Source: Terfezia claveryi (lineage: Eukaryota > Ascomycota > Pezizomycetes > Pezizales > Pezizaceae). From it: 64,000 nt of DNA. Shown here one piece after another: positions 2,383 to 35,575 of this stretch. The stretch covers positions 186,001 to 250,000 of the forward strand of contig WHUX01000050.1 in NCBI GenBank assembly GCA_015179025.1, written 5' to 3'. Numbering within the stretch: the stretch's first letter is position 1; each line of letters starts with the position of its first letter. The notes below the pieces were generated by a model that worked only from the letters and a program-made list of their open reading frames with translations, was not told the origin of the DNA and did no database searches. The position numbers and the translations under genes were made by a program.

Positions 2383-2436
2383 TTCCTCGAGTAGTCAGTC
2401 TACTAGCGGCTTGTGCCAACAAGACTATTCCTCGAG
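2383..2436 (-). repeat. 36-bp TAGTCTGG-family micro-insertion with exact 9-bp target duplication
   Basis: The insert at 2392-2427 reads on the minus strand from TAGTCTTGTTGGCACAA. It is flanked by identical 9-mers TTCCTCGAG at 2383-2391 and 2428-2436; a tenth base (A) also matches because the insert ends in A. Removing the insert and one 9-mer gives a simple uninterrupted target. No open frame or terminal inverted repeat explains it, although the insert begins TAGTC and ends GACTA. Confidence 0.8.
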
Positions 2437-2469
2437 GTATGTATATTCTGGACTAATTCCGGTATTGGT

Positions 2470-2516
2470 TGGCACAACCCTCGGTAGCCGGTAGGTTTGT
2501 GCCAACCAGACTAGGT
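2470..2516. repeat. Inverted pair of TAGTCTGG-family cores
   Basis: TGGTTGGCACAA (about 2467-2478) faces TTGTGCCAACCA (about 2497-2508), and the second copy continues into the family terminus CCAGACTA. The two halves form an imperfect palindrome of about 50 bp, which could be two insertions in opposite orientation. A 9-bp duplication around the pair is not clear: the best candidate matches 6-7 of 9. Confidence 0.5.
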
Positions 2517-3695
2517 TTGGGGTTTAGGTGCAAACACCTCAGCACCTGGATGCATGTGAGTTTAAATTCCGAGAAATCCCCACTCGTGGAGGCTAATCTC
2601 GGAACGTTACAAGATTACCCGAAACTGCTATCTCGGAATGCTATCTCGAAACTAGTCCCGATCTTCTCGAAACCTAATGAGACTGGGTACTCAAAGCCAT
2701 CTTATAAAGGAAGCGGTCTTATGGCCATGATCCGGGATAACCAGATCCCTGCTCATCACTAAGTTTCTCCGATTTAAAATACTTCCCGTTCAGTCAATAT
2801 ACAAGGTTAGCAAAGAATTTAAAGAGGCAGCAAAGAACCGATCTCCTGCCAACAACGAACAAGCTACCTCATTTATTCGGTTCCTGAAGCGATTGACTTA
2901 GTCTCGTGCCTTAGCTATAGCCACAATAGCAAGGCTTCGAATTGAGGAGATTTATATTCCGTCTCATAATCACAATCAGACTTTCTGTAAACTCTATGGT
3001 TAGGACGCCGATCTAGTCTGGACCTAGTCCAACGCGGGACATGCATTTGGGAATGGGAGGGAAGCAGAACCGCATACCACTATCCAGGGCCTTGAAAATT
3101 GCATCGGTATCTATATTAAAGCTGCCGGACGCCTCCAAGATCAATACTCATGGTCCCGGGTTTGTATTTCATTCTCAACTGGGGGTAATCGTAGTGATTG
3201 TTGCTGGCGGATGTGTTTGTTTTCGGTCCTGTTCTGGATTTTGTGGAGCGGGATTATGCAGGTGGGGGATGCATTGACGAGGTGTTGGATAGCGCCGTTG
3301 ACGATCGATTAAGCCATCAGAACGAAATACCAGAGGATTGATCAGGCATTCGAGGATTCTAAGTTTGGATAAACAGCGGAAATAGGAAGCTCAAGTCTGG
3401 TTTGCCTTCCATAAGTACGTAAGTATTGTCTGCAGCTGGTTATTAATGCCGGCAGCTTGAGAGAGATTTGGGATCATATATTGCGATATATTCTTCCAAT
3501 CACACAAGTCCAGCGATTATGCGGGGAGCCTACTGGATGTACGTGTTGTACCCATGAGTTGATGGGCTTCGCGATTTGGCTTCTATCGTTGGCCATGGTT
3601 GTCGCACATATCAAAAATTCATGAATCCATTGCGGTATTGTCCCGAGAACCTTTTTCACACATCAATCAACATTCAGCCCGCCAAAGAGATCAAT

Positions 3696-3748
3696 GCCAG
3701 TGTCTAGTCTGGTTGCAAGACCCCAGGACTCACAGCACAGCCAGTGCC
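3696..3748 (+). repeat. 35-bp TAGTCTGG-family micro-insertion, near-exact 9-bp duplication
   Basis: The insert at 3705-3739 starts TAGTCTGGTTG and then leaves the family consensus. Flanking 9-mers are GCCAGTGTC (3696-3704) and GCCAGTGCC (3740-3748), 8 of 9 identical. The constant end is on the left, as in the other plus-strand copies. Confidence 0.65.
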
Positions 3749-4301
3749 GACCATTCACCATGGCCCCAGATACCGGTGCTTCACAGCCACGTGTGGGTGA
3801 CATTTTATACCGCTTTGTGTACTTTTCACTATCCGGGTTTCGTATACAAAGAAATTCACTGAAGTACATGTACATATAGCAACTGCACCCTGCCAGCAAC
3901 TGTTCCACTTCCGCTTGCATTCATTCGCACTCCACTAGATCTCACGTCTGGAACTGTGATCTATTATCCTCATTTAACTGGAATTTCCCAGGGCTTTACT
4001 ATTCCCATCTCGGGCTTTTTCTCCATCTTTCCGTGTTGCCTATAATTCTGTTGTTTTCCAGATCGCCGTGCCCTGTAAATGTAAGTATCCTGGTGATCCA
4101 TCCGGACCCCCCCCCTACGTTTTTTTCCTGTCACTGTGCACGGCGTGCTGGGGCTAAGAATTTCACCCGCCCCAATGTCGTCCCCTCGAATCCCCCCCTA
4201 CCCCCTACTCTATCCCTCTGGCAAGGGTACCGTACCTTGATCTCGCAATGGCTTTCGGTACCCAATCTGCATTGTCTTCCATAGTCTATCCCCATTAACT
4301 A

Positions 4302-4454
4302 TTATCTTTTAGTCTCTTACGTTCACTTCTACCAAAAGTCAGCCCAGGAGCCAATCACACCAGGCTGGGACCATTCACTGGTTCTTGGGCGGTTTCTCTT
4401 CTCCATACGAGCGCTGGACTGCTTTATCTTTCACCTTCCTGCTTTACTTTATCT
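4302..4454. promoter_or_regulatory. Three GATA-type sites upstream of the ferric reductase
   Basis: TTATCT (AGATAA on the minus strand) occurs at 4302-4307, 4424-4429 and 4449-4454, within 450 bp of the start at 4745. Ascomycete iron-regulatory GATA repressors of the SreA/Sre1 type bind HGATAR-like sites before ferric reductase genes. The sites are seen directly; the regulatory role is inferred. A six-base motif is common by chance, and the full ATCWGATAA consensus is not present. Confidence 0.3.
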
Positions 4455-4744
4455 CACAGTTGGTCACCATCCTCCCTCTCTTCCTGCTCGTGTATACTGG
4501 TCGAAATCAAGGTCTACCCCGCGAAACCATTTCACTCGAGTACGTCTACTCAAATCTGCTTGCCCACACCTCCACATTAACCTTCAATCAACGACGTTAC
4601 ACTTTACTCTTCTAACAGCTGGCGTGTATGCACAGTTGAGTATCTAGTTAGGGCCCTTGGGACATTACTTAGTGTCTACATTCCGGAGTTCGAGCCCCCT
4701 TACGTCACAGAGCCATCGAAACACATTCCTTTGTAAAATCAGAG

Positions 4745-6952
4745 ATGATAGCCACAAAATTGATGATTAGGAATGCAATCTCGAAGATCCTTCCAAGGGG
4801 AGGACATGATGCCGTTAATCAAACCACATCTACACAACCTGGCCAGGTGGACTGGGAGATATACACAACTGGTTTGAATGGGGTTGATAATGATGAAAAT
4901 AACCTTCTAAGGTATGTATGATAAGCATTCTCGTTTCTGAAGGATTTATATTCATCTGACTCGGAAACAACATTAGCTCACTTCTGTACTATTCAATCGC
5001 CTTTCTAGCATTCGTCCTAATTCTTTCCCATATTCAACACCTAATCCTGGTCAAATTCCGTCACATACTGCTCCTGCACACAAATACTCGGAGGCTTTAC
5101 TATACTGGGCGACACCAGCAAACCCAACTGTATCATTTGTAAAGAGATATATTCTATGGGCTCCAGTGGGAAAAATCAAGCATAACAGGGAGATTCGGCT
5201 AAGCAGTGCCATCAATTTTGGAACTCTCCCAACGCGCTTGCAAGCCATCTTCCTCACTCTTTATTTCGCATCCAATGTCGTTTACTGTACCATTCTTCTC
5301 AACTGGCATCTTCCAAGGCCTCAGCTCATTGCGGAATTCAGAGGCAGAACCGGAGTCTTAGCGGTTACTAATATGGTCCCACTGATTTTACTTGCTGGAC
5401 GGAATAATCCCTTAATTTGGATTTTTGGGATTAGTTTTGACACCTGGAACCTCATCCACAGGTGGCTGGGTAGGATTGTGGCGTTGGAGAGCACATGCCA
5501 TATTACGGCTTGGACAATCAATGAAGTTGAGATAAATCCAATTGGATGGCAAGGCGTGTTGGAGAAGATTCGAGAAAGTCATTTCGTCTTGTGTGGGTTG
5601 ATTGTGAGTAATGCCTGTCGTTTTTGTTTTTAACAATGTAGTATACTGACTCTTTGATAGGCCGGGATTTCCTTCCTTTGTCTCTTATTCCATTCACCTT
5701 CACCTATTCGCCATGCTTTCTACGAAACGTTCTTACATCTTCATATAGCCTTTGCGCTTGCTGGCTTAATTGGTGTCTTTTACCACTTGAAGATCGATAA
5801 ACTACCACAGATAATCTATATTTGCACCTGTATTGGCCTATGGTCATATGACCGCCTCTCTAGACTTGTGAGGTTGCTTTACAGGAACTGTGGAAGGCGC
5901 ATGACGAGATTCCGGATCACTGCGTTGCCTGGTGGAGGTGGTGCTTGTCGGGTTGACATTGAGTTGACTCGAATATGGAAGTATAGGCCTGGTAGTCACG
6001 CATATGTGTATCTACCGTGGGTCAGCATGTGGCACAGCCATCCTTTCTCGATCGCCTGGTCCAATAATCCAGACCAGACGGTGGCTTGGAATGAGGATTG
6101 TGACAGTGCGGAGAGGCGTGACAGCTCTGATTCTGCTGATAGTAACGACACACTTAGTCTGAACCCTATGGGAGATTTGGCCGATATCGAAAAGATGGCT
6201 AGCACTATAATCTTTGTCGACAGGGCTAGTGCCGCACCTTCAGGGCAAGACACATATATGGAAAGGTATTCGGACGATATCCCATGGTCAGAAAGAAACA
6301 CAATATCTATGGTGATGTCGAAGCGGGCTGGTATGACGAAGACTCTTTGGGACATGGCGAACAGAACGGCGAGCAAAACACTTTACTTCCGAGGCTTCCT
6401 GGAAGGAGAGTATGGAGCGCAACATGGCCTTTACTCTTATGGAATGGTGGTGTTGGTAGCAGGTGGCGTTGGAATCACACATTGCATAGGATGGGCCAGA
6501 GAGCTTCTCCACCTTTATAAAAAGGGCCGAGGAGTTGCGAGGCGAGCAGTTCTCATTTGGGTTGTTCCGGACAAGGATCAGTATGACTGGTGTCGAGAGT
6601 GGTTTGACGAGATCTTTGCAGTTCCTGGATGGGAAGAGGTTTGTCTGCCTAGGCTTGAAACTATGCCATTGAAACATTGTTGCTAACATTTCAGTTGTAG
6701 TTTCTCACAATCCAATTCTACGTTACGCGGCCAAAAGGTGACATGTTGGTTAGCCCATGCCCCAACGTTCCAGCGTATGCTGGACGCCCTGACTGGCGTG
6801 GTCTTTTCAACCGCTTCGTTGAGCAGCGTCTTGGGACTATGGGCGTCACAGTATGTGGCCCTGGTGCTTTGTCGGATTCAATCCGTTACGCAGTACGGGA
6901 GCAAATTTCGAACGCCAGTATCGATTTCCTCGAAGAGTCATTCACGTGGTGA
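4745..6952 (+). CDS. FRE-type ferric reductase, transmembrane heme/FAD/NADPH metalloreductase
   Basis: Likely plasma-membrane reductase that reduces Fe(III) (or Cu(II)) for uptake, using cytosolic NADPH, FAD and two membrane hemes. Proposed exons: 4745-4911, 4977-5049, 5094-5603, 5661-6638, 6701-6952, giving 659 residues, close to family size. Seen: hydrophobic helices; paired heme histidines about 13-14 residues apart in successive helices (HRWLGRI..CH, then RHAFYETFLHLH); an FAD motif HSHPFSIAW; an NADPH motif GGVGITH; a terminal CGPGALSDSIR. The start was chosen because the frame before the first intron carries a leader and soluble N-terminus typical of the family. Intron 2 (5050-5093) is only 44 bp with an unusual acceptor, so that junction is the least certain. 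Substrate metal is not determinable from sequence. Confidence 0.9.
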
Positions 6953-9440
6953 CAGAAAGTCATTCATTTCTTGAAAGCCACTTTTTTTTTCATACTGCGG
7001 GTTTGCTTATACATAATCCTGGGCATAGTTAGCGAATATCGCGCTGTTTACAATTTCTTGGTAATTTGGCAGGAGTAGGGTAGTTTGCCCTTTCTTTGTT
7101 GATACATCATATTTGACATTTCTATTTTTTTGCGCTTGCTCTTAAAAAGGCTTGTCTCACCTTTTTCTCGGCATACTCCGCTGCCACCAGTGCGGCGCCT
7201 GTTGGGTCCAGTTTCTAATTAGCCTTTTCGTAAGGCTCTTTCCGCCGGTTCTTTCGGGTGTATTTCTACTACATAGTTAGCTTAACTATTTAGTTCTTTC
7301 TTTGTATTTTTGCTTTTGGGGTATCTTGTGGGAATGTACATAGTATTGGCAGGCAAAATGTGGACAAAATGTAAAAAGAATATCAGCATTTTCTAATATG
7401 ACTACTTTCTGCTCGCGTGCTTACAAAAGCATGAATGTCATGTGATATGTTTCCTAATTCGGTAGCCCTTTTGGGGTGAGGCAGTACTCGTATTCAAAGC
7501 AAGCTAGTTTATGACAGGGAACGCATCATATCGTGGACAATACAGGCTTATCCCCATCCCGGGGTTCCATGGCCCAATCAGTTACCTTATTTACCATCTC
7601 ACTGGAGCTGAGGAAGCGATTACCGCCATTCACGTATGAAGGACTGACCGTTTCAGGACTACACACCGGTTTCTCAAAGATAAATACGTTTCCATCATCG
7701 AGATATGACCAAGCAGGCAAGGCCCCCTAGTCGGAGCATCTGCGGGGAATTAGCCGCCTCCCTAGGCAGTTGGTGTGTATATTGCTATGCAGTATATAAG
7801 CGTTGAGTATTTGGGAATAATGAGCAAAAAAGCATATAATCATGTAGTTTTGACATTTTGGTAGAGGTTGGGCTCGCTCCGCAATTCAGTGTGCTGTGTC
7901 TATTGCCGACATCCAGAAAGTGATCACGGAAACATTCTATGCATATGGTAGAAGCATCACAGCGAACAACTTCTCAAGGACTCGAATTCGTTTTTGTGAT
8001 GCTATCCCGATTGTGAGAGATTCCCCTGGGCTGCAATAATCCACTAAGGTAGCTGATTTTTTTGGCGTCTGCATCCTTAATTCCGCTGCTCCTCCTCTAC
8101 GGCTAAAGCAAGCTCACATCCCATAACGTCGATCTATGATCGTAGACATTGTATACAGCCCGGAATATTCGGCGTCCCTTGTTAACCACGAAGCTACATA
8201 AGTAAGTACACCGTTTTCTGGGAAAGAGATCATGAGGAACAAGAACTCATGAAAGAGATTCCCCGAAGAATGTTGAATCAAGGATCAGGGTTACTGTAAC
8301 ATTTATCCGAGGATCCAGGTTCCGAAACTATGGAGGAATTGAAAGAATTGCTCGATTAACACGCCCAATGAGCCTAGATAGGCTTGACATCAACAGTTCT
8401 GAATTTCCTCCAACATGTGATGTCTCTGGTGGATTGATCAGTATAAATGGAACGAGATTATAATATCTTTGTGATAGCTTCATGTTTTTGGTGACTAGGA
8501 CCGACTGAGTTGGTCTAGTGCCCGACCCTAGGTTGAGGGTAGACAGAATCGGGGGATTCAAGTACTTGGATACCCAATTGAAGTGGAAATCAAACTCTCC
8601 AGTGCGTATTGTATGAAATCGGGAGCGAGTGTAGGGGGTCAAATAAAAGTCAAGAAAAGGAATTAGGGAAGCAGGATGGGTGTTTATATCTGGAAAAAAA
8701 TATGCTTGAGGGTCACCTCCCCTCCGCACGCTAATGGAGGGTAGTTGTTAGCAGAGGTCTAGATTTTGGAAGGGGATTCAGGTGTAGGGGTGGGGGTAAT
8801 TTTAAACGAGATTTGCTGCAGGGAGCAGATATTGTGAGTCTAGACTTTCGACTTTGAACCTTGTTTGATTGGTGAGAATGAAGGAAATTACCACTAGGTA
8901 GGGGTGTAATAGCACGCAAGCTTCCATCATGTAGAACTTGGTTCTGGGCCCACGGAAGTGAGGTTGTGGACCTAGAACTAAGTTCCTGTATTTATAAAGA
9001 GGAATGTTAAGCTGATGGGGCATAGTTAAAGTCTGGTGTGAGCTATATCGGTACCAAGTCGTGATGATGTTCACCAATCTTACGAAAACAATAGTAATAT
9101 GCTGGTCTAATCTAGTTATATTTCACACAAAATAAGAGAGGAATAAAGATAGACCCACGGATCACAGAGCACAAAATATTAGGAAATCAGGAGCCTTCAA
9201 AGTTGGAAGCTGATGAAGATGAAGGGATATTAGCTGCAGGAGTAGTATTGGAAGGGCAAATTGATATTGGAGATGGAAGAGCAGAGGAAACTAACTAATG
9301 ATACTGATGCTGATGCTGAAAGAGATGGAGAAATTGAAAGAGAATTGCGAATTATGTAAGACTAGGGTTCCGGGTATTATGTTCTTCCAAAGGCACAAGA
9401 CTAAAATCTGATTTCTTTTATAATATATCTCGATTATACA
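6953..9440. other. Intergenic region without a supported gene
   Basis: Nothing recognisable is encoded. The first 400 bases after the ferric reductase stop are T-rich and probably hold its 3' end. Open frames at 8328-8729 and 8802-9077 (both -) lack motifs and look like chance frames in AT-rich DNA. Confidence 0.5.
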
Positions 9441-9445
9441 GTTAT

Positions 9446-10128
9446 CTAGATTATACAGTACGGTAGGTATGGGTATGGTTGTTGTAGATGGGTCGTCAAG
9501 AGGCCCTGCCCATACCTAGGCCTTTTACAACCACAGGAAAGTCTGTGGAAAAACACCTCTACATCAGGTCCCAGAACTTCGATATGGCCAATAAGATCCC
9601 TTATGTTAACGTTGACATTGTCTACAGCCTGAAGCAGCTCAGCCGCTGGAATAATTATCTTGTTCTTGATGTCTCCGGAAGTCTTGGATAACCAACGTCC
9701 TTCTTTATTATTATACTCCATTCGCCAACGGTACAAGCATACCGTAAATCAGTCTTGAATAATCCTTCTCCCATTTCCCTTTTTCTGTAACCACTAACCA
9801 CAGTCCCAGATACCACTGTAATGACGTTTGTCTTTAAAAACTATTTACTTACCATCATATGTTTTCATTCTCTAGTAGTCACACATCCGTGAATAATACC
9901 ACTTCGCCCATGCATACCTCATGGCTAGCATAACATATCGATCGCCTGCCTGATGGCTGCATTCTTCACTCCAATGATCAAGACAAACTTCTCTTCAGCC
10001 ACCGCAATGAGATCGAGCCTAAGGTCGGTGGATATAATCTCCTTCTCTCTTGTTAGATGTAGTATACGCACAGCCTCCTGGAACCTGAAGATGACGATGA
10101 TGATACTAAATACTTGAATCGCAGACAT
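9446..10128 (-). pseudogene. Decayed fungal accessory protein with nuclease-like core
   Basis: Read on the minus strand, three broken frames follow each other in an order that makes sense for one ancestral protein. A piece with DLRLDLIAVAEEK and VLIIGVKNA resembles the D...(E/x)VK core of PD-(D/E)XK-like domains. A piece GIIHGCVTTRE follows, then KGKWEKDYSRLIYG and LANGV. Stops and frame changes separate them. The layout recalls a repeated family of fungal proteins that carry a weak nuclease-like fold and a KW..D.S.L..CLY..L.NG motif. That assignment rests on recall of the family pattern, not on an alignment. No intact frame exists, so the locus is taken as a relic. Confidence 0.3.
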
Positions 10129-10149
10129 ATGCTTGGTTGAAGTGGATTC

Positions 10150-11745
10150 GTGTCTTACGGAAACCTTTCAATGCTAAGATATTCCAGAATTCACTGCTCC
10201 TTCATCATGTTCGTTCTTTCAACGTCGTATGCTGTGTTTTCTGCTGACATTGTTTCAAAAAAGGTACGGCGCCAACTTCATTCTTTCTCACGCCGAGTCT
10301 TTTTCTCTGCTGTTCGAATAACATCACCGAATATACGATGTGATGGGTACCCATTTTTGCAATTGGTTTTGTCTGATTACTCCGGGCATACGCGTGGTAC
10401 CTTCCCCCCCTCTCGCTTTATTAGCCATGTAACATTAGGAAAATTTCTGCCACATGTACATACGCAGAAAGCACTGCCTTATGCATACAGTACCTACAAC
10501 GACGTGTGGACCTGTGAATGGGCAAGGCGAAGCAAATTGAAATCTCTTCCCACCGGTATGCCTGTCAGGATCACACGCTTCCGAGCTTCAGCCCTACAGG
10601 AATATCATTATCACGCGTTCCTGTACTGACGCACACCTACCTGCCGCAATTGCAGGACTCATAGAGCACCTGAAGGCCATTGGGATTGACTGCAAGTATT
10701 TGGTATTTGTCTTCCTGCAGAGTCCGCTCGGCAGCTGAAACACCCATGCCCGACCACTCCGCCCGCGATCAAGAACTGCATCTCGTATGCACCTACCGTA
10801 CCCATATAAACCAACCGTACTTGCTTCTGGAACCAGTCGCTTAAGCTGCATGCACCAAAATCAGGTATATCACCCCGGCAACCGCTGGGCAGGGTTCCTC
10901 GGTAAGGACGATCGTGGGCAACTGCAGGCCAGCGCCATCGCCCAATAATTTTGCCATCGTGTTTCCCGCTTTTACACTGACTCTAGTAACGTCACGGTAC
11001 TGACACCCTGGAGGTTAAGTATTGCAGCAGATCACTTCGGTTCGGAACCGGCACCGGCACAGCTCCTCGGTGTTACAGGTTCATCAGAAAGTATCTGTGT
11101 TGTGTTTAATCTCTCCTACAGAGTCGCTGGAGTGGTGTCGGTAGGGCTTGTGAATGATCTGGTAGGTCCATGGGCCCGGTTTGAATTACAGATCTATATA
11201 TGATACCCATGATACCCCATGATACCCCATGATACCTGATATCATGAAACCCAGTTTCTAGCTTACCACATACATCACGGAGTACTACACATGCACATCG
11301 AGCTGACGTCTTGCTCTTCGAAGTCTTCCCTTACACTTCCTGTTTAATTGCGTGTTATATATATTCTGACTGGGACGGGGGTAACAGACCCGTTAACTGT
11401 ATATATCCGACGACCCCCCGCTACAAGGACGTTGGGTTCACAACATACCAACTAGAACCGCTCCCCCAGGCAGCCAATTTCTCAACCGGACGACACCCAA
11501 TTTCATTGGATAAATAGCGAGTATTTTTTGCCCATACTTACATAAATCTCTAGTGAAACTGTGCTCTCCTGGAGTAAATCAAAGTGTTTGCAACGTTCAT
11601 ACCTGGAGTTGCTTGAGAGTAGGACTTGTTTATCCTTTCGTGACTACGAATAGGAAAAGATACCAATCAACGGGCGCAGAGGATAACAAACTTACGCATC
11701 AGTCAATTCGCAATTGGTAAGAACATTGTACCAATTGACAACACG
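10150..11745. other. Intergenic region upstream of phospholipase B
   Basis: An open frame at 10150-10629 (+, 159 codons) has no motif, no family resemblance and an unlikely composition, so it is not called. A short tandem repeat lies at 11202-11240. The final 230 bases contain a GATAAATA stretch (about 11511) and may include the phospholipase B promoter. Confidence 0.45.
11202..11240. repeat. Short tandem repeat, 10-bp unit GATACCCCAT
   Basis: About four consecutive copies of a 10-base unit with small variations, ending in a palindromic TGATATCA. It is probably a minisatellite seed with no evident function. Confidence 0.7.
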
Positions 11746-23830: not shown

Positions 23831-23844
23831 TTCCAAGCATAGCA

Positions 23845-24297: not shown

Positions 24298-24326
24298 CAG
24301 TATTATTAGTCTGGTTACAGTATTAT
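24298..24326 (+). repeat. 11-bp TAGTCTGG-family micro-insertion with exact 9-bp duplication
   Basis: TAGTCTGGTTA (24307-24317) lies between two copies of CAGTATTAT (24298-24306 and 24318-24326). If the final A is counted as target, the duplication is 10 bp and the insert only 10 bp. This is the shortest copy with perfect flanks. Confidence 0.7.
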
Positions 24327-24373
24327 GGACATAATAATAAGCCAGTTAGGTACTTGCAGAGGATATACAAGAC

Positions 24374-24472
24374 AGTCTGGCTTAGTCTGGTTGGCCTCCC
24401 TAGGAGCGGTCGAGTTCGAGACTATCTGGTTGGCACAACACTCTCCACAGCTTAGTGTGCTAAAGTCTGGCT
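24374..24472 (+). repeat. 81-bp TAGTCTGG-family insertion with exact 9-bp duplication
   Basis: The insert at 24383-24463 lies between AGTCTGGCT at 24374-24382 and 24464-24472. It starts TAGTCTGGTTGGC and contains a second core, TCTGGTTGGCACAACACTC, from 24425. It also carries GGTCGAGTTCGAGAC, which resembles a tRNA B box, but no tRNA fold is possible. The 9-mer itself resembles the family core, so this copy may have landed in an older one. Confidence 0.65.
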
Positions 24473-25895
24473 ATATTCAGTGCACGGTACAGGCAACAGT
24501 AATGGCTGCATTGCCATTACAACCCCATTTTGGGCTGAATTATGCAATCTGCATGCAGTACATAGGCATTGCATATACAAGATTCCCAAACCGGAAAGAG
24601 GGAAAGACTTTGGTGTGAGCCTCTGTATTGTATGTAGTTCCCCTCGGGCTCATAATAAAATGGTCGTAAAAGAGAAACAAAGGTTAAGAAAATAAACAAT
24701 AAAAATTTTCAATAAGGAAAATTGAAAACACTGCCATCCTGATTGACCAATACCGTCCTAGCTTCTGATATGGAATGTATTTAGTTAGTTTGCATATGTT
24801 TACAGGAGCAGTGGGGGGTTGGTTTTTTCTTGTTCTGCATTCACTGTTCCTAGATAAAACTTCTACAAGCAGGAGGAACACCTGCATCTCATCAGATTGT
24901 GATTGATTTTGGTCAGGCAGAACTGTGGAGTGCATAATGAAGAGAATAGGATACGAACTAGTAACTAGAATAGGGAACTGGCGATAGACTAAAGGTCTTG
25001 GCAAGAGGAAGGGAAATGGCATAATTGTAAAGTAACGGAGTGGAGGAATGAAAAAGGGATAAGATTAATAGGAAGAATAAAAGGCATACCCCATACTGAT
25101 CAATTTAGGTCAGGCAGGACCAAGCAGTGCATAACATAGATGGAAAGTCTCATCAATGTAGTGTGATTTTTTTTTGATATGGTTGTACAGTGGGTTTTCT
25201 GGATATATATATGCTGAAACATTGACCACATTTGGTGATATTGTGATGCTTTGAATTGCTAGACCCATTGCTTTTTGCATAGTGCTCTGGAGATTCATGT
25301 GGTAAGGCTTTTGTGAGTGCTGCATTGGTCAGACTGCATCATATGTGTGAGATGATGAATCGTTCTCGAACGTGGGTATGGTTGGTATGGGGTCTATTAT
25401 TCTGAATGCTTTGCCAGTGCCAGAGCGCCTTTGTTATCCCCTGGAGGAGTGGGACTTTTTTCTGGCATGTTAATGTTTTCCAAGAAACTTAGGATCCGTA
25501 TTAGTTCCCGGGCTCATAGCCTAATAGAACGAAATGGTTCGTTATTCCGTGATAATCCCGGGGGTCGTCCCTCATCCCGTCATCCAGCTCTAAGTAAATC
25601 ATGCTAAGCCCGCTAATATTCCATCTAGCCACTGTAGGATGACATCGCCCTCGGATACTACTCTATATTGTACCGTAACCGAGTGACTAGCATTCGGTTA
25701 ACATCGATGTATTCGTGATTCGTAGAGGTAGGCTAAGGTACCCCACAGATCCACATCACTTGCACCTTACTAGTAATAACACACGGCCAGATGAAATTTT
25801 AGTTTCCCACCCAAATTTCCTCTATACCGGACTTGTAAAAGAACCAGTCCAGGAGATTTATTGAACTTAAAAAATAACTACATACAAAGATACTG
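24473..25895. other. Gene-poor flank of the Pogo element
   Basis: No gene supported. Two imperfect copies of a motif GGTCAGGCAG..GTGCATAA (about 24910 and 25112) suggest an old degenerate repeat. Open frames on both strands are short and lack motifs. Confidence 0.5.
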
Positions 25896-25897
25896 TA

Positions 25898-25939
25898 GTA
25901 TGACCTACTTAGTAACGATCGGCAATCACCTAACGATCG
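25898..25939 (+). repeat. Left terminal inverted repeat of the Pogo element
   Basis: Pairs with 28151-28192. A TA duplication precedes it at 25896-25897. It contains GATCGGCAATCAC and a palindromic CGATCG at its inner edge, a plausible transposase-binding site. Confidence 0.92.
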
Positions 25940-25991
25940 CTGTCTCATAACTCCGCTCGGATATCACTGTCACCTTCGTTTTGCAACCACC

Positions 25992-27992
25992 ATGCCACCA
26001 AAAACGTCCAAAAAGATAAAAGAGTTGCAACTTGAGCTCAAGTTGCACGATTCGCAACTTTCGCGAGCAGTTGACTATGCTCGCAAGCATCCTACGGAGT
26101 CCAAAGCCCAGGTAGCAAAGGCATTCGGTGTCAATGCTACCACCTTACGACGGCGGTGCCAGGGGGTGCAGGCACCACGATCAAGAGCTCAACAATCACA
26201 GCAGCTTCTTACAGCTGGTGAGGAGGAGGCAGTTGTTGACTGGTATGGAAGGATGAGTGACCTCTACTTCCCTGTCACAATCCTCATGCTGGTGTCAATG
26301 GCGATTCAGATTTTGCAAGCTCGCAGTTTAAAAGAGAAAATCATTCCTGGTGTCAATTGGGCCAGGCGCTTCCTTTCCCGACACCCCAGTGTGAACCTCA
26401 AGTATTGTCAATTTCTGGAGAAGTCTCGAGCTAAAGTTGCTGCAACACTAGACGAGCAAGCTAAATGGTATCGTACATTACGAAGTCTTATGCGCCAGTA
26501 CAAAATCAAGCCCGAAAACCTATGGAATTGTGATGAAAAGGGCATTATTATAGGTCTGGCAGTTGGTAGGCAAAAGGCAATAGTCCGCGCCAATGCCAAT
26601 AGCCGGAGCAAGGTTATATTAACTGATGGAAATCGGGAATTTTGCTCCTCCCTCGAGACTATTAGTGCTACAGGTTAGTTCAAGATCACTTATTTAAACC
26701 AACTAAGACATCAAACTGAGACATCAAACTGAGACATCGCAGGTCATAGGTTACCACCATTTATTATTTGGGCGAATAAGGTTCATTGTGATGGATGGTA
26801 TGTTACTGGTGATACAAGGCCGGCGACCTTTACTCGATCACCTAGCGGCTATATGGATGACGAACTAGGCTTGGATTATATATCTAAGCATTTTGACCGA
26901 TACACAAAACCGAAGGCAGGGGAGGGGTGGCGCATACTAATTGTAGATGGCCATAGTAGCCATGTTGCCTACCCTGTGGTTGAATATGGTCTTGACCATT
27001 GCATTGTCATATATTGCCTCCCTCCGCATTCAACACACCTGATGCAGCCTCTAGATGTGGCATGCTTTGGACCACTATCAAGAGCCTACCGCACCGCCCT
27101 CCAGGACTTCATATATTACCACCCTGGTAAGCCCTTTGGTAAGCCGGAGTTCTGGGATTGCCTGTGCATTGCTCGGAATCAAGCAATTACCAAGCCTAAT
27201 ATTCTCAGTGGGTTTGAAGCCACTGGAATATGGCCACTCCAACCGGAAGAAGTACTTGGTCGAGTTGCCGCCTCCGCCGCCGCCTCCGCCGCCAATACCC
27301 CCGCACCTGCTGTCTCAACTCCAGTCAAGGTTACTAGCATACGCTCTGTACTCTTAAAGCTCACTATAACCCCTTATTCGAGAGCAGCTATTAACGAAGG
27401 GCTCAATTACCTTGAAAAGAGAGTAATTCGATGCCAGATCATTGACCCCTCCTCCCAAGGGTTCAAACAGCTTCGAAATGGTAAGAAGGTCAAGCCTCGT
27501 TCAACCAAGCGGATCCAGGGCCCTCGTACACTAGATCGAGCCTATATTGAGCTTGAAAAGGCACGAGTTGCAACTGCTAAAGCTCTTGAGGCTGATAAGG
27601 CTGCAAATCGAGAAGCACGCAGGTTAGCTAAAGAAGAGAAGGCCAAGGCAGCCCAGGAGGTGCCTGTGGGGTTCAAAACTGCAAGAAGGGGTACTCAAAG
27701 TACCAGGGGGCGTGGTCGCGGGAATATAGCTCGATCCAGAGCCACAAGGCGCTTAAAGTTCGATACCGAGGAGGCTGATTTGCGGAGATTGGTGAGCGCA
27801 ATGTCATTTATGGCACTTTGTGGTGGGTGTATCTCTATCACCATGAATTCGCATGACTTAAAACTGATTAAACTTATAGAACGAACATATGGGGAGCCTG
27901 CAGCTGCTAGTAGAGGCTCTGGTAGGCCATATGGGAGGGGTGGTCGGGGTGGTCGTGGAAGAGGGGGGGTAGTTGTAGGAGAGAGTATTTGA
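25992..27992 (+). CDS. Pogo-family transposase (CENP-B-type HTH plus DDE domain)
   Basis: Cuts and pastes the surrounding element by binding its inverted repeats. Two exons, 25992-26673 and 26743-27992, joined across a 69-bp intron (GTTAGT...CAG), give 643 residues with no stop. The N-terminus (about 12-60) is a psq-type helix-turn-helix (KAQVAKAFGVNATTLRRR), followed by a CENP-B-like segment ending VNWARRFLSRHP (121-132). The catalytic triad is visible: Asp181 in LWNCDEKG, Asp296 in LIVDGHSSH and Asp332 in LMQPLDVACFGPL. That spacing is DD35D, as in pogo and fungal relatives. The tail is basic with RGRGR and GRGGRGRGG repeats, plausibly for DNA binding. Without the intron the frame would stop at 26676, so splicing is required. 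Confidence 0.92.
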
Positions 27993-28150
27993 TGACTATA
28001 GCGGATTCAGGGTAAATTTTGGTGTATTGGGAGTGTGATATTTGTTTTTCTTGAGTTATTTTAGCCTATATGCATTGTTTTTATTGCCAGGATATCGCAA
28101 GGGTTGGTGGATATATTAAGTGATTTCTGCATTGGGTGCGGGGAGCATGC

Positions 28151-28192
28151 CGATCGCCACGTGATTGCCGATCGTTACTAAGTAGGTCATAC
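28151..28192 (-). repeat. Right terminal inverted repeat of the Pogo element
   Basis: Reverse complement of 25898-25939 with three mismatches near the inner end. A TA duplication follows at 28193-28194. Confidence 0.92.
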
Positions 28193-29366
28193 TACCTAGA
28201 CAAGCCAGAACCTACCTAGAAGGCCAAAAAAATCCCAAAGTTGCTTCTGGACCTTAGTTGTAGCTTCATCAACTGGCAGAATTTTCTGATGTTCGGTAAT
28301 AGGTTGCTGCATGCTTTGAGGAATTCCAGCGTGAATGATAGAGATACTAGGATTGCGATTATAGATAACAACATCTTCATTGAATTTCAACCATGCTTCT
28401 GCACTTTCCGCTAACCCAGGATCTAGTACAGTGGTCGGTAATATCTTCAGTTTCTAACTTCATGTTTGCAGGTAGGTACTAGACTGGCGGGTAGATGAAC
28501 CGACAGACTGATAGGTATCTGTTCTCGGCATTAGCATTTCCCCACCCCAAATAAATATCAGAATATTTAGCCAGAAAATTAAACCTTCGGGGTTGGGAGG
28601 AAAAGGGATACCCCGCCACCAGCGCTGCAAATTTGCTTTACCGGATCCTGAGTTAAACCGGCCGGTAGGGGTTAGATTTTGGCCCGTACGGTATAGCAAG
28701 GTGCAACTGGAATCCATCCATCCAACGTACCTGTGCAATCTCCTCATCCGGATCCTCGTTATACCAGATGATCCTATCCGTGCACCCCTATCTGTTCGAG
28801 CTGAGATCTCAAATTTTAAAGCTGCCCCTTGACTTTTTCGCATTTTGATACGGTGAGGGAGAAGACTGGTATGTGACAAAGAGTTAGGTACCGTGCATGA
28901 TCTTCACTGGCGAGGTCTGGGACATAGTCTCGGGTGACAAAAAGTCAGACATACAGGTAGTATTATCCAGAAATAAAAAGAACTGAGGATAGGTACCATA
29001 GCTGCACTGCACCTTCACTGTGAAGAAGAAAGAAAAAAAATTGCGAACCATGCCGGTAGGAGAGGAGGGGGAGAGGGAAATAATGATATTCCTTTTAATA
29101 TGAATTGTTAGGCTTATGCATAGGCATATTCTAAATCTTGCGATTCAAAGCAGGTTGTGAGCGCACAATGATAACGTTTAATTACAGCGATGCCTTAAGA
29201 ACTCGTGAACTGAGGCATTAGTCCGCCACATGTACCAGTATCCTAAGGGTCATATACTCGGGTACGGTCTAAGTAGTACGCGAGTGTGGTCTTCTTTGAA
29301 TTGAAATTAGATATGAAAAGTTACCTCCATGAGTTGCTTGATCTCGTGTTGATAAATTATGCATAC

Positions 29367-29409
29367 GGTATCCCTGTAGCTGTCAATATCAACCAGACTA
29401 GGTATCACT
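29367..29409 (-). repeat. 25-bp TAGTCTGG-family micro-insertion, 8 of 9 duplication
   Basis: The insert at 29376-29400 ends AACCAGACTA, the family terminus on the minus strand. Flanks are GGTATCCCT (29367-29375) and GGTATCACT (29401-29409). Only the terminal 11 bases match the family; the rest is unrelated. Confidence 0.6.
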
Positions 29410-29477
29410 TCAAATTTGTGTGGTGTAGCAAACATCAATAACCTAGTACTAACTATTCTTGACCACTTGCTGGGACC

Positions 29478-29524
29478 CACGCAACCTAGTCTGGTTGGCA
29501 CAACACCCTCCTTTGCACGCAACC
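29478..29524 (+). repeat. 29-bp TAGTCTGG-family micro-insertion with exact 9-bp duplication
   Basis: The insert at 29487-29515 starts TAGTCTGGTTGGCACAACAC. Flanks are CACGCAACC at 29478-29486 and 29516-29524. It is one of the clearest copies, lying only 77 bp from a copy in the opposite orientation. Confidence 0.8.
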
Positions 29525-29841
29525 ATAAGTAAGGCCTCTGGCTTAATCATCATCATCCCCCAAAACAACACCCGAGATGTCGGAGCTGCCCAAGTCATTG
29601 CTGGCTTGCATTGCTTTATCCAAATCAGATAATAAAAAGCTTTAAGTTTCTTGCTGATGCGCACGGGGATTATCGAATCACATGGTTATTTTTCTTCCCG
29701 AGGACGACATCATTAGCAACATCATCTGGGAGTTCGATTTTTAGCTATGTTGCACATGCTTGGGCTCTCAACTCCTCCGGATTCTCTTCCATCTAACCCT
29801 ATTAAGGCTCCACTTTTTTTGTTTTTGCGCAATTAGGTACG

Positions 29842-30040
29842 GATATTAACTAGCCTGGTTGGCACGTGATAAAGAGTCTGGAACATAGCCAATGAGCGAT
29901 GTGGCCAAAAAAAGCCCCCAAGAAAACCCAAGTACCTTACAATAGCATAACGTCTCATCATTATACCAGTTAGCACTATCTGTAACCAAAAAGGTGACCA
30001 TCATTGCCTGAAAAAGAGCCGAAACAGAAAGGATATTAAT
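29842..30040 (+). repeat. Candidate 181-bp TAGTCTGG-family insertion
   Basis: TAGCCTGGTTGGCAC starts at 29851, directly after GATATTAAC (29842-29850). GATATTAAT follows at 30032-30040, 8 of 9 identical, or 9 of 10 if the preceding G is included. If real, the 181 bp between are the longest copy here and the best view of the internal sequence of the family. No open frame or polymerase III boxes are evident in it. The larger search distance makes a chance match more likely than for the short copies. Confidence 0.45.
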
Positions 30041-30333
30041 GGTGTGAAGGAAAGTAAAAGAAGCCGGTCATAAGGTGATGCCCCCATACCCTTCATGGAT
30101 ATATTCAAACAATATTGCAGACCCCAAAAGTGACAAATATAGCATGTAAGATTTCCAACAGATAAACAATAATGAACGACAAGTAGAATAATCACAAGAA
30201 CAAAATAAAATGCCCCGCCTTTATGCCCTAATAATACAAACGAGAGTATGAGAGACGCCTAGACCGACCGACCGAGCCATAACTTAAAGAAAATAAACAG
30301 ATGTAAAGATCGTAGATATGATACCAAGTGCAA

Positions 30334-31530
30334 CTACCACCACAGTTCCCCATATGCATCCACGCTCACTTGATTCCCTGGAAGATCTATGCCCACCACA
30401 CTCTTGCGATTAATGTCCTCGTTGGCAAACTCGTACATAACTGCATTCATCTTCTCCAATGCCTCAAGAACGATACATTCAGAGCTTGCGGTCCTCCTTC
30501 GTGACCTCCTCTTATTCGGGCTTGCACAAATCGAACTGCGGGGACTGACTGGAGAATGTGTGAGCGGAGGCAAAGGGGGACTAAGCATGTTCGGTGTGTT
30601 TCGAGGGACCTTAGTTTCGATGCTTAATCCTGGGCTCTGTTTCTTCCGAGCCTCTGGGCCCACATGAACGAAAGGAGGGCTCTCAGGCGACAGAATCTTC
30701 TCCTCCTCCTCAGCATCATCATCATCATCATCATCTCCATCATCAAAACAGCTCATGCCCATTCCAACCCCCTGGGTGAAACTGGCCCTCTTTTTCAATG
30801 GTGTAATTTCCACAGGTGACTCGGGGGGTGACTCGTCATCCATGAACCAAGATCTATTCGATGCCACAGAGTCAATTGAATTTAAGCTGATCATGCTGTT
30901 TCTGTGAGGGGCAGCCGCTCGTGAATGAGTGTTGATACATAAATTAGATGGCCTTGGGGCTTGTACATCCACATCCGAGAACACCAAAGATGGTACTGAG
31001 ACGTCTGAAGCGGTGGACATGATGCTCATTCGTTTTCTGCCCTGGTTGTATGAAGCTCTCTCTTTCGAAGCCGGTGGTGAAAGAAAGCGCGACTGGTGCT
31101 CATTTCTTCTGCCAAGGCATTCCTGGTAGAGATTCATCTCTTGATGCACGCCCTCTGTAATTGAGCCCCCGAGCAATGTTTGTATATAATCTTGCAAGCC
31201 CTCCTCAAGTGCGAGGTTGGAATTCTCTTGAAACTGCTCATTTCTTGGCAGGATGGGGGCAGAAGCCCGGGCGAGCTTCTTTGGAATCTTTACGGGAGCT
31301 GGTTTGACTTCCAGTGGAGACAATACCTCCCCTGCTATGGCACTACTCTTACTCTGCCAGGATGCAGACTGATCTGAAAGTCGGAATGAAGTGGGCGGTA
31401 TACGATTACCGACCTCTCTCAATGATGATCGCTTCGATTTAGCCCAGGGATTGAACGAAATATCACTATTATCGTCCCAAGCTGGTAGCTCATCCTCAGA
31501 GCTAACGTCATAGTAGTTGGAAGAATCCAT
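30334..31530 (-). CDS. Acidic Ser/Asp-rich protein of unknown function
   Basis: I do not recognise a family. The single 398-residue frame looks like a real fungal gene: even codon use, no repeats of the genome, and a start (MDSSNYYDVSSEDELPAWDD) in a clear ATG context. Visible features: an acidic N-terminus with a possible CK2-type SSEDE site, long disordered Ser/Pro-rich stretches with many SP motifs, an Asp/Glu run near 265-280 (DDGDDDDDDDAEEEE), and a basic cluster KRRSRRRTASSE near 345 that could be a nuclear signal. The ordered end (about 352-398) has a predicted helix LEALEKMNAVMYEFANED and ends in YGELWW. That end is probably the conserved part. No intron is needed. Regulated nuclear or cell-cycle roles are possible but not shown. 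Confidence 0.6.
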   Translation of the reverse strand: MDSSNYYDVSSEDELPAWDDNSDISFNPWAKSKRSSLREVGNRIPPTSFRLSDQSASWQSKSSAIAGEVLSPLEVKPAPVKIPKKLARASAPILPRNEQFQENSNLALEEGLQDYIQTLLGGSITEGVHQEMNLYQECLGRRNEHQSRFLSPPASKERASYNQGRKRMSIMSTASDVSVPSLVFSDVDVQAPRPSNLCINTHSRAAAPHRNSMISLNSIDSVASNRSWFMDDESPPESPVEITPLKKRASFTQGVGMGMSCFDDGDDDDDDDAEEEEKILSPESPPFVHVGPEARKKQSPGLSIETKVPRNTPNMLSPPLPPLTHSPVSPRSSICASPNKRRSRRRTASSECIVLEALEKMNAVMYEFANEDINRKSVVGIDLPGNQVSVDAYGELWW

Positions 31531-31882
31531 TGAAGGGTGTGAACAATTGAATAGGCTGTGTGAATTAGATGAAGTATGCTTGCCGTTTGAAGGTGTTGAC
31601 GGGTAGCTGTGGAATGCGAAGTGTGAAACATCCGTTGAAGTCTTTGTTATTTCGGAAGTTTCAATGAAGCTGTATGTATCCGCAAAACTGAATGCAGCAA
31701 AGTTCGGGGTTGGGTATTTTTTGTCGATGATATTTGTAAATCAGGCAACATCTGGACTTGGGAACCGAGAAATAAATAGGGAACTTATCGTGCAATTCTT
31801 GGGCTAACACCACAGATCCCTGGTGGATAAAGTACTGTAATAATATGAAGCCAGCCCCAACTTTTAAGCGGGGACACAACAT

Positions 31883-31927
31883 GAGCCCTCCTAGTCTGGT
31901 TGGCACAAGCCTCTCGTAGAGCCCTCC
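31883..31927 (+). repeat. 27-bp TAGTCTGG-family micro-insertion with exact 9-bp duplication
   Basis: The insert at 31892-31918 starts TAGTCTGGTTGGCACAAGCC. GAGCCCTCC flanks it at 31883-31891 and 31919-31927. A textbook copy of the family. Confidence 0.8.
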
Positions 31928-33031
31928 CATTATCGAGTTTCTCCCATTATCCCATGCTGAACAACGTGCACCCAGCCGTTCCTGAGACAAGTCAAGTGCC
32001 GGTCTGTGCCAAATTACACCACAAGTTCCGTACTCCTTTGATGCAGGTTTCTCGCATTCCTAACCGTAGATCCTTTTGGCAATCATTGCCATAGCTATGG
32101 AGTCTCCCCATAAGTGAATGAGTTCAGCAGAGCTCGGGTGATTTTACCTGCTTTGTTGTATAATTGAGTAGGTACAGTACATGTAGTGAGCTAGTGATTT
32201 ACCATACCACGCTAGGCAATTCCGATGAGAATTCTCTTCGCCATAAAGTCCTCTGTTCACCAACCAGAGTATCTGTTCACTCACTTTCCGTACCCTAGTA
32301 CATATTTGTGTGAGCACTCAGAATGCATATTTGCCAATTTACCTGGTTTTTGGGTAAGTAGTGTTAGGCCTCTACCTAGGGATATTCCATACAACTCGTT
32401 GCATAAATACTGATCACTTAGCCTAGCTTGTAACTATATGCAATGTACAATGTACATAACACATATCTAAGCATCGCTATATTTTTTGCCGCCTCAGTGT
32501 TGCAGAAGAGCGCCACTTAAGAGGCAAATTAAGTAGAGCACAGACCGGACGAAAGGCCAGATGGACCCCAAATACGTGATTACTGTATTTAGGGTAGAGT
32601 TCCAGGCACGGACTAGGAATCCACAACCACCTCTCGGTACGGCTGTAAACAGTTGCGAAACCCGACACCTATTGGGCCAAATCAAATGCGGCTATCTCTG
32701 ACTCCGTAGTACGTGCCCACTCATAAAAGCCAGTATATTAACCTCGTACCCTGGCAGAGCGTGTCGGAAATCAACCGCTACGCAATCATGATTTCCATCA
32801 AGTGGCCCCGTCCTAGCTCCGTTCTCTAACCTCTTTTGTTTTGACATTAAACGTTCTCACAAAAAGCCTGACACAATTTCTGTGGCGGGAGTCGAATATT
32901 CCATCGCTCCTGGGCAAAAGCAGTGAAATTCCCATAGTGAGGGAGTTATTGAAGTCTACCATGATCGTGAAAGAAACTTTGGGAAAGGCAAAATTTTGAA
33001 AGTTTTTGCATCTAGATAAAATTTGTTCTGG

Positions 33032-33079
33032 CTGTCGTATAGTCTCTGGTTGGCACGACACCTCCCGTGCCTGTCGTAT
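33032..33079 (+). repeat. 30-bp TAGTCTGG-family micro-insertion with exact 9-bp duplication
   Basis: CTGTCGTAT occurs at 33032-33040 and 33071-33079. Between them, AGTCTCTGGTTGGCACGACA matches the family with a two-base CT insertion in the core. The leading T of the family terminus coincides with the last base of the duplication, so the true boundary may be one base to the left. Confidence 0.75.
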
Positions 33080-33152
33080 TTGAGAAGGGGGCCCCCAACC
33101 AGAATAGGTTATCTTGGTGGCGAGACTGGTGCAGCTGGTACGGAGTAGGTAC

Positions 33153-33203
33153 GGAGTACCCTCTGCGAGGGGTACCGGTAGTGCCACCAGACTAGGAGTA
33201 CAT
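33153..33203 (-). repeat. 33-bp TAGTCTGG-family micro-insertion, imperfect duplication
   Basis: The insert at 33162-33194 ends GTGCCACCAGACTA, the family terminus on the minus strand with one base missing. Flanks GGAGTACCC (33153-33161) and GGAGTACAT (33195-33203) share their first seven bases. Confidence 0.5.
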
Positions 33204-33300
33204 AGCCATGCAGCTTTTGTTTATTGAAACGACGGCGCCGATCCCTGGTCGAGGAGACGACCGTTGTGTCATTCTCCACATCTTCGGTGTGATCACTAAG

Positions 33301-33328
33301 GGTTCACCGTAGTCTGGTTGGTTTTCCG
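33301..33328 (+). repeat. Possible 10-bp TAGTCTGG-family micro-insertion
   Basis: TAGTCTGGTT (33310-33319) lies between GGTTCACCG (33301-33309) and GGTTTTCCG (33320-33328), 7 of 9 identical. The insert is the same ten bases as the copy at 24307, which has perfect flanks. Confidence 0.4.
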
Positions 33329-35542
33329 ATAGCTAATCAACGACTTTTCGGCATTGTGCTTTCTTAGGATCAAGTACCTTTAATTCCGGCACTCCGTCGA
33401 CATCAGCGCCAGGGCTCTGTACATTCACAACGTACAGTAGGGCGTAGTTTTAGTACATAGAACGACCAAAACTTGTTAAGGCACACTAGACTTGGTAATT
33501 AGGATTGGGCTTCCTCAAGGGGTGGATCTCATGCAAATTTCCGGAGCCCCAGGAATATATTTCCTATGAGTCAACCGGGCTGCTGCCTTCAGAGTCTAAA
33601 ACTATGTACCCAGATAGTCGGCTGTTGGAGTTTGATTACTCGGAACTCTCAATGAGTGAAATATTATATGATCTTTGAGGAAGTATGATAAACATAAAAC
33701 CTTGTCTCACTCCCTGGCTCCCCTATTCCCTGCTTTTTGTGAGCTGCAACCATTAACGTAAACCCGCAATGGAAAGCATGCAGCTATGATCACCATGTTG
33801 ATCATTCATTCATCGATTACAGGTACCTCCATCCATTTGAGAATACTATTTATAGGCCATTAACCTCAAAACATACCCGGCCTTTTGAAAGATACTTTAG
33901 AAGTGTGGTATAGTGTAAGTAGGTACAAGATCTGTTTGTCAGTCAAAACGCATCTCAAACAACAATTACTCCGTAGTTACGGCAAGTAAGTATATATACC
34001 TCACAGCAGAATGACAAATCATGAATCTTTTAAAGACTTTGTAATATCCTTCCATTATAATTACTTACCTCTAGATCTATGTTTATCGGCGCTAGACGGA
34101 GTGCAAATTCGTAGTCATGCCAGTGCTTGATGTTGAAAGTTGAAAGTGCTTAGTAGCTTCACCAGACAGATGCCAAGGCCAGTGTAACCTTAATAGGCAA
34201 CAAGAAGTACAAATACGGGTACGAGACAATACAAATGCTTAATGCGGTAGTCTACTGGACAACTTAAGTTAGTAAGATAAGTATCATTACTTCGAGAGTC
34301 GTAAAGAGCTAGATTATTGATCGAGACTATAGATTATTACAACATAACACTTTGCTCCATTATATATATATACTGCGGTGGTATACTAGTTGTAAATCTA
34401 ATGTTAACCACGGTATATTATAGTATGTAGAGGATTGAAACCATATTTGCAACGTAAATACGTTTCTACTTGTAGATAGGATGATATATCCAGAGCGACT
34501 AAATTCAAAAATTCATCAATAACCAACAATGCATGTTCACTTGGAATTCTACAGACCCAACTTGTAGCCCAACCCCTTAGTCAAGTAGATTGTACTCGTG
34601 CATGTATTATCCCTTTAGAGAAAATCCGTAGTTGGAGCACAGCTACCCCGTATTTCCTTCTAAGATTTACTCATGTATTCGCGTTTATGTAGTCTGGCAG
34701 TGCAACAGCTAACCTGAAAAGGTTAACTGGCTGCGCTTGGCTGTACACGGTCAAGTCTTTTTCGCAGTAAATGGCAGCATTTCTTCAGCTTGTATCTACG
34801 TTGCATCTACTATTAAAAATATTTCTCCATTTTCCTCTATTTAAACTTTGCGCACACTCTTAGTTATGTGTACTTGTACATATCATGAATAAACCAAAAG
34901 CCTGGTTCTGACAGGAGTAGCATTCCCATACAAAACTATGTGGCAGCAGCACCTCCAGCAGTACGCACTCAGGATCGCAACTAATTCTATACTATATTGA
35001 TAAGCTTTAATCAAGGACAGGGCAGATACTCAATTCCAAGGCTTTCGCTACTGAATCTGAATTTAGACGGATTTTCAAAGTTGGTCAGTTTAGTTTTAAA
35101 ACTGCCCCTATCCAAATACTAATGTCATAGAACATACATAAGCAGTAGACGGGTGTCGCCAGAATTATATATTGCTTTGGCTTCTTTGGGAATACCACCG
35201 TACTCCACTAGAATAATGTGACCTAAGCATGACAACAATATCCTAATAAATGTCATAATATGAAAACCAATTGTACATCCTATTCACCAACCATGGGTGT
35301 AATACGTAGTGTGACTAGGGAAGAAGTAGTTCAATGAGGTGTCAGAGAGTCTACTATTGAGGACAGCACTATTTTGCAGGCTGGATGCAAGGGCTGTTAT
35401 GGCCGGCGTTCTGCGTAATGCACTTTTTATCGTATGTGTATCTTCTGTGTTTTGTTTTCACCTTGTGTCTTTCTCTGCTATCAATCCTACATTACCACAT
35501 AAAACCTACGTAGCCTCTCCAGTATTAACACTACACCTCGAG

Positions 35543-35575
35543 ATACTTTAGTAGTCTGGCTATACAATACTTGAT
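35543..35575 (+). repeat. Possible 15-bp TAGTCTGG-family micro-insertion
   Basis: TAGTCTGGCTATACA (35552-35566) lies between ATACTTTAG (35543-35551) and ATACTTGAT (35567-35575), 7 of 9 identical. Weak on its own. Confidence 0.35.

Follow-up and report, generated by a model that had tools for sequence, protein, structure and literature searches.

Short insertions with one constant end and a 9-bp target duplication in the genome of the fungus Terfezia claveryi

Several described transposition systems share features with the insertions considered in this work. Mutator-like elements (MULEs) duplicate 8-10 bp of their target, mostly 9 bp. One-ended transposition of the Tn3-family elements Tn21 and Tn1721 gives products with one constant end and a variable other end, which can enter the donor DNA, and with a target duplication of the fixed length of 5 bp. 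Among the very small repeats of bacteria, repetitive extragenic palindromic sequences (REPs) are palindromic and, to our knowledge, lack target duplications. As given in the sections of the respective papers used here, the target duplication of the MULE Muta1 is 8 or 9 bp (PMC5225508), and the single-ended transposition of piggyBac shows that one end is enough for a eukaryotic transposase to act on (PMC3952818). Here, we describe a family of short insertions with one constant end and a 9-bp target duplication, which was found in a 64,000-nt stretch of Terfezia claveryi DNA (bases 186001-250000 of contig WHUX01000050.1; hereafter, the window) and, when the 72.6-Mb host assembly was searched, throughout the genome.

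With miniature inverted-repeat transposable elements (MITEs) derived from MULEs, the family shares the 9-bp duplication, the lack of a strong target motif, the inverted repeats of its two-ended copies, and the high copy number. However, its two-ended copies measure only about 50 bp, most copies have one end only, and no matching autonomous element was found among the four of 21 MULE loci that were read. Like the one-ended products of Tn21 and Tn1721, the inserts have one constant end, a variable other end, and a duplication of fixed length, but here the duplication is 9 bp, the tail lies inside a palindrome of about 50 bp, and it ends in two preferred zones. The piggyBac case differs in that it is a laboratory construct with a TTAA target, and the sections of that paper used here report no miniature products (PMC3952818).

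A preliminary description of the window had proposed nine such insertions of 8-181 bp and had held that their design was not accidental. The constant end, the 9-bp duplication, and the variable length are all upheld, and the insertions are real and genome-wide. The exact 15-mer TAGTCTGGTTGGCAC, which represents the constant end (the head), occurs 2885 times in the genome (1432 + 1453), whereas its reversed control does not occur at all; the genome-wide copies for which the preliminary description had called are thus present. The head of a sister subfamily, TAGTCTCGATCAGACC, occurs 363 times, as compared with two for its control. Among 94 heads of the type TAGTCTGGTTG, 48 are followed, 8-45 nt on, by a duplication of the preceding 9 bp with at most one mismatch, whereas shuffled duplications give 1.5, and the remaining 46 heads yield 13 duplications at two mismatches, against 2.8 by shuffling. 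For the 65 exact 15-mer heads, the duplication is exact in 25, has one mismatch in 11, and was not found in 29.

Loci that were not chosen by their head come from a 264-kb sample that consists of C1:1-200000 and the window. In this sample, an exact 9-bp duplication (insert 5-60 nt) accompanies 21 of 178 occurrences of the 6-mer TAGTCT, whereas 119 permuted 6-mers give 86 of 15,357, and the worst single permutation gives 10 of 179. This worst case is ATTTGC in the window, whose ten exact duplications possibly reflect a tandem repeat or another small family. Permuted 8-mers, an equal rate for which would have refuted the family according to the preliminary description, do not reach the rate of the 8-mer TAGTCTGG: permuted heads with one mismatch allowed give 99 duplications within 250 nt in 11,172 cases, whereas TAGTCTGG gives 23 of 244 when one head mismatch is allowed and 16 of 54 when none is. 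The duplication is taken to be 9 bp long because, for the 54 exact 8-mer heads, the number of matches within 60 nt holds from length 8 to length 9 (15 in both cases) and falls to 6 at length 10. The 21 inserts of the sample are distinct (13 in C1:1-200000 and eight in the window) and correspond to about 80 per Mb; a few that have diverged heads, perhaps two at the permuted-head rate, may be chance matches. The duplications (n=49) show no strong target motif, although T is seldom found at their first position (4 of 49). At the junctions, four of 13 duplications beside 15-nt inserts start with A, the next base of the element, which is approximately the chance expectation.

The collection analyzed for insert anatomy comprises 70 insert rows, 67 of which are distinct, and 40 loci were fetched for the exact 15-mer. 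The lengths of the 67 inserts fall into two classes, with 31 at 8-16 nt, 31 at 25-36 nt, and none at 17-24 nt; in addition, one insert has 6 nt and four are longer. The commonest length is 15 nt (13 inserts), although this peak is inflated because the 40 loci were chosen for the exact 15-mer. Among the 21 inserts of the 264-kb sample, 12 measure 10-15 nt, over which range they are spread, and nine measure 25-36 nt; the empty zone between the classes persists, and no insert has 37-60 nt.

The tail, which the preliminary description had called variable, does vary in length, but its sequence is mostly not arbitrary: the tails are mostly prefixes of palindromes of about 50 bp, ending in the two zones. 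Much of the long class consists of the same start followed by an arm, a hairpin loop, and 0-5 nt, as in the readings CCTCTC-GTA-GAGA, CCTCC-TTT-G, CCTCC-TGTT-GGAGG, and CCCG-CCAAA-CGGG and, with another arm, TAGTCTGGTTGC-ACTACCCCTC-GCA. The 3' ends of 16 of the 28 long inserts pair back by at least 3 nt, as compared with 14% of shuffles (this count omits six two-ended rows but includes two in which 5 nt of the second end are preserved, and the shuffles were made from all 34 rows), and by our own reading 10 of the 16 pair across the loop as drawn. The stop is abrupt: in one subfamily, the 27-nt prefix occurs 141 times in the genome and the 34-nt prefix twice, and one of these two matches is a 31-nt insert that is prolonged only by the chance agreement of its duplication. 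Downstream of 86 heads, no shared match runs on from the head beyond nt 31; there are 17 alignments of 14-21 nt, seven of which continue from the head but reach no further than nt 31 and ten of which start further in. The base that follows the head is not A in 1001 of the 2885 copies, and copies of 14-15 nt are accordingly estimated to make up at most about 46% of the family, on the assumption that long copies all have A and that 15-nt copies have any base.

In contrast to the head, the opposite end is almost always lost. Among 64 inserts of at most 40 nt with a recognizable duplication, 0-2 nt of the opposite end are left in 59 and 5-15 nt in five, and matches of one or two bases are about as frequent as expected by chance. 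A second terminal inverted repeat (TIR) of at least 5 nt, as expected of a MULE-derived MITE, is therefore present in only five of the 64 inserts, and, among the 86 heads compared, the copies share no interior beyond the palindrome.

Two-ended copies nevertheless exist, so that the statement of the preliminary description that the inserts have no TIRs holds for most copies only. The genome contains 46 pairs of exact ends separated by no more than 30 nt. Twenty of these pairs, selected from the list rather than drawn randomly, were retrieved, and eight of the twenty have exact 9-bp duplications outside both ends. All of these eight are palindromes with mirrored arms of 19-25 nt, in AACA and AAGC versions. 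The remaining 12, as we read them, comprise among others nested one-ended inserts, a copy shifted by one base, and a copy whose duplication is 8 bp long. Two of the palindromes, of 50 and 51 bp, fold into full hairpins at -28.3 and -30.6 kcal/mol. The sister subfamily has eight such end pairs. Of the seven whose sequence was inspected, three have a right end that breaks off after exactly 15 nt even though the sequence there differs, but the search pattern itself required at least 15 nt. Convergent exact ends 31-91 nt apart occur 30 times in the genome, which is roughly 17-fold what random placement would give at the observed 15-mer counts, and on this basis copies of the end cluster or nest in each other. 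No common interior was seen by eye in these 30 pairs (letters to 80), except in copies of the same repeats.

We propose that a DDE-type transposase, most likely that of a MULE, makes the inserts by one-ended transposition of hairpin-forming ends, and we assign a probability of roughly 0.45 to this reading. A MULE transposase fits because of the 9-bp duplication and the lack of a strong target motif. The substrate would be a non-autonomous palindrome of about 50 bp, whose TIRs extend towards the center as far as a loop of some 3-12 nt and which can fold into one hairpin. One TIR, with the constant end TAGTCT..., would be joined to the target, and the other target strand would be cut 9 bp away. 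The hairpin might then be cut or abandoned at either of two places: near its tip, which leaves the arm, the loop, and 0-5 nt (25-36 nt in all), or in a second zone close to the outer end, which leaves 8-16 nt. The end so formed would be joined to the target on its other side. Rare survival of both arms would give the two-ended palindromes. That an end protected by the transposase lies behind the short class is a guess.

Random later deletion is disfavored because it would spread the far endpoints, and so frequent a halt at the duplication would not be expected. When random deletion and ordinary cut-and-paste, which gives two-ended copies, are set aside, there remain truncation at insertion and excision followed by partial copying. 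It is also conceivable, but improbable, that palindromes of about 50 bp insert normally and lose one arm afterwards, when the host processes the hairpin during replication. This would accord with the two-ended palindromes that have duplications, several of which carry deletions near the center, and with the many endpoints of the long class at the hairpin tip; however, it leaves unexplained both a loss that stops 0-2 nt from the duplication in 59 of 64 inserts and the class of 8-16 nt, and two-ended copies are few (5 of 64).

The joined flanks of all 70 insert rows were compared with the stretches of the same genome that had been retrieved. An unoccupied paralogous site was found for three inserts, in two cases cleanly: the relative of C1:65902 is 91% identical and has a single copy of the 9-mer, and that of C1:152134 is 79% identical and has a single copy with one mismatch. 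The third, the unoccupied relative of C1:152612, is a less tidy case. For the window inserts with duplications starting at 24298 and 24374, the genome search found repeats on either side and no relative spanning the sites. Inserts in coding sequence were set aside as evidence for empty sites; the open frames that span inserts are only 112-142 aa long. In one repeat family, four copies (C170, C781, C264, and C287) were seen by eye to share one 31-nt one-ended insert, which differs slightly in two of them, and on this basis the inserts are stable once made. The presence of the same insert in several repeat copies also bears on the suggestion that the family is an assembly or library artefact, such as one of tagmentation with a transposase that duplicates 9 bp. 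Tn5 tagmentation does yield 9-bp duplications as well, but the heads and duplications contain mutations, copies are nested, there are several subfamilies, and the insert sequence presumably differs from the Tn5 mosaic end; we therefore consider an artefact extremely improbable.

A longer parent MITE was sought without success. Pairs of inverted ends with a duplication, up to 15 kb apart in the 264 kb, gave only copies of 34 and 36 bp, no match that ran on from the head passed nt 31 in the 86 heads, and the genome-wide pairs 31-91 nt apart had no interior in common by eye, apart from copies of the same repeats. A parent that has few copies, or one longer than about 120 bp outside the sample, may still exist. 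This question is central to another explanation, namely that the inserts are scars of two-ended MITEs with 9-bp duplications, which were later excised and whose gap was partly refilled with 8-36 nt of one TIR from a sister copy (abortive gap repair). Such footprints resemble the inserts in that a partial TIR lies between two target duplications, and they likewise predict that both duplications are intact, that one partial repeat is present, and that nothing is left on the far side. One 30-bp copy of the form 15+15 (L040) has an exact duplication, and, as given in the part of the report used here, the excision of Muta1 in yeast from constructs without a duplication at times left behind as much as 13 bp of the TIR (PMC5225508). 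Excision scars are the foremost alternative to one-ended transposition, though a less likely one. In the same part of that report, excision of Muta1 in yeast is about 90% precise when duplications are present (PMC5225508), so that thousands of scars would require far more events. Copying tracts would be expected to be spread, whereas the inserts, which are mostly one-sided and whose heads number in the thousands, fall into two classes with none at 17-24 nt. Truncation at insertion is preferred because of these separate length classes, the mostly precise excision of a MULE with duplications, the absence of parents from the 264-kb sample and of a shared interior from the 30 wider pairs (apart from copies of one repeat), and the four repeat copies that keep the same one-ended insert.

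As for the enzyme, the genome contains 21 matches to PF10551 (the MULE domain) and 10 to the Mutator DNA-binding domain, and none to the Merlin-type DDE_Tnp_IS1595. Four of the 21 MULE loci were read over about 1.5 kb on each side; two have 14-bp TIRs and exact 9-bp duplications, and two show no TIR accompanied by a target site duplication (TSD). The former, at L029:94-2747 and L030:532-3167, are MULEs of about 2.6 kb with the inverted ends CGGACTGACTC(A/T)GG, and their end sequences are unrelated to the inserts of the present family.

Several observations weigh against one-ended transposition by a MULE as outlined above. The two MULEs whose ends are readable have another TIR (CGGACTGACTCWGG), and no transposase with TAGTCT-type ends was found among the four readable loci. 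At least three paired terminal nucleotides are lacking in 12 of the 28 long inserts, some of which end at the loop or one base past it and some of which fit no arm; six of the 16 paired ends pair by a route other than the loop drawn; and four truncated copies, when folded on their own, are not superior to shuffled sequences (z -1.05 to 0.62). The class of 8-16 nt is not explained by a hairpin. Moreover, restricting the lost-end counts to recognizable duplications favors exact far ends. The 46 heads without a good duplication are followed by its last five or more bases in seven cases (2.1 expected) and by its first five or more in four (2.3 expected), and since partial duplications thus exceed the shuffled level, duplications may have decayed, or deletions may in some cases have reached into the second one. 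Finally, the copies are fossils, and for this reason the order of events cannot be read from them. It is also possible, though in our judgement rather doubtful, that the mobile unit is a single hairpin of one terminal repeat and a loop. One-ended insertion would then be normal, most inserts would be dead stubs of 10-36 bp, and the few that are copied through would become new mobile palindromes.

Within the window, re-measurement of the nine coordinates confirmed all six exact 9/9 flanks. The insert at 2392..2427 (-), of 36 nt and with the head TAGTCTTG, keeps 5 nt (GACTA) of the other end and lies between TSDs at 2383-2391 and 2428-2436. An 11-nt insert, TAGTCTGGTTA, at 24307..24317 (+) is flanked by 24298-24306 and 24318-24326, and close to it lies a composite insert of 81 nt at 24383..24463 (+), with TSDs at 24374-24382 and 24464-24472. 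The long class is represented by a 29-nt insert at 29487..29515 (+; TSDs 29478-29486 and 29516-29524), read as an arm, a TTT loop, and 1 nt, and by a 27-nt insert at 31892..31918 (+; TSDs 31883-31891 and 31919-31927), read as an arm and a GTA loop. The sixth, 30 nt long at 33041..33070 (+) between 33032-33040 and 33071-33079, has a variant head (AGTCTCTGGTTGGCAC); the one-base shift noted there was confirmed, the inner sequence starting with AGTC. Of the three flanks matching at 8/9, two stand: those of a 35-nt insert at 3705..3739 (+; TSDs 3696-3704 and 3740-3748) and of a 25-nt insert at 29376..29400 (-; TSDs 29367-29375 and 29401-29409), whose tail is unlike any known arm. At the third, which starts at 29842, the head TAGCCTGGTTGGCAC is present at 29851..29865 (+), but the claimed 181-nt insert is unproven because a tail of this length with an 8/9 match fits neither length class.

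Exact duplications also flank four inserts beyond these nine sites. One of 30 nt and the type TAGTCTCG at 24395..24424 (-) is nested in the 81-nt composite, with the TSD TCTGGTTGG at 24386-24394 and 24425-24433. Since the 81-nt insert thus contains another and the one of 181 nt is unproven, the supported size range is about 8-60 bp and not 8-181 bp. The other three are an 11-nt insert, TACTCTGGTTG, at 32261..32271 (-; TSDs 32252-32260 and 32272-32280), an 11-nt insert of the sister subfamily, TAGTCTCGATC, at 34319..34329 (-; TSDs 34310-34318 and 34330-34338), and a 12-nt one-ended insert at 1550..1561 (-; TSDs 1541-1549 and 1562-1570), whose diverged head TAGTCTCT makes it the weakest of those given here. 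A damaged two-ended palindromic copy was read by eye at 2466..2513 (-), with an exact 15-mer head at 2513; no TSD with at most one mismatch was found for it within 400 nt. On either strand, the exact 8-mer TAGTCTGG occurs 14 times in the left part of the window and not at all in 35600-64000, as if the inserts avoided the gene-rich right part. Other features of the window include frames at 25899-27989 with a Tc5-type DNA-binding domain and a DDE_1 transposase, an NDUFV1 exon at 52602-53489 (-) that shares 98% identity with Terfezia boudieri across 96% of its length and so places the host close to that desert truffle, and the C/D-box snoRNA snR51 at 63601-63696 (-), which is the sole Rfam match in the window and is unrelated to the inserts.

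In the fungal literature searched, the 15-mer, its 12-nt start, and its complement were not found (two matches were unrelated), nothing corresponding was found under solo-TIR or palindromic elements or the shortest MITEs in fungi, and no description of the insert family was found. By analogy, the inserts may be likened to the very small repeats of bacteria, such as the cyanobacterial small dispersed repeats (SDRs) and REP/REPIN sequences, in their length of tens of bases and their high copy number. Thousands of tiny one-ended inserts in a eukaryote look like at least a variant that has not been described before. The density of about 80 per Mb extrapolates to some 5000-6000 inserts in the genome, and the family may be one of the more frequent origins of short insertions in this fungus; inserts of this size are probably missed by ordinary repeat finders. 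If truncation does take place at insertion, the family would document single-ended transposition in a eukaryote naturally and on a large scale, and its many clean junctions would allow hairpin opening and end joining to be studied from sequence.

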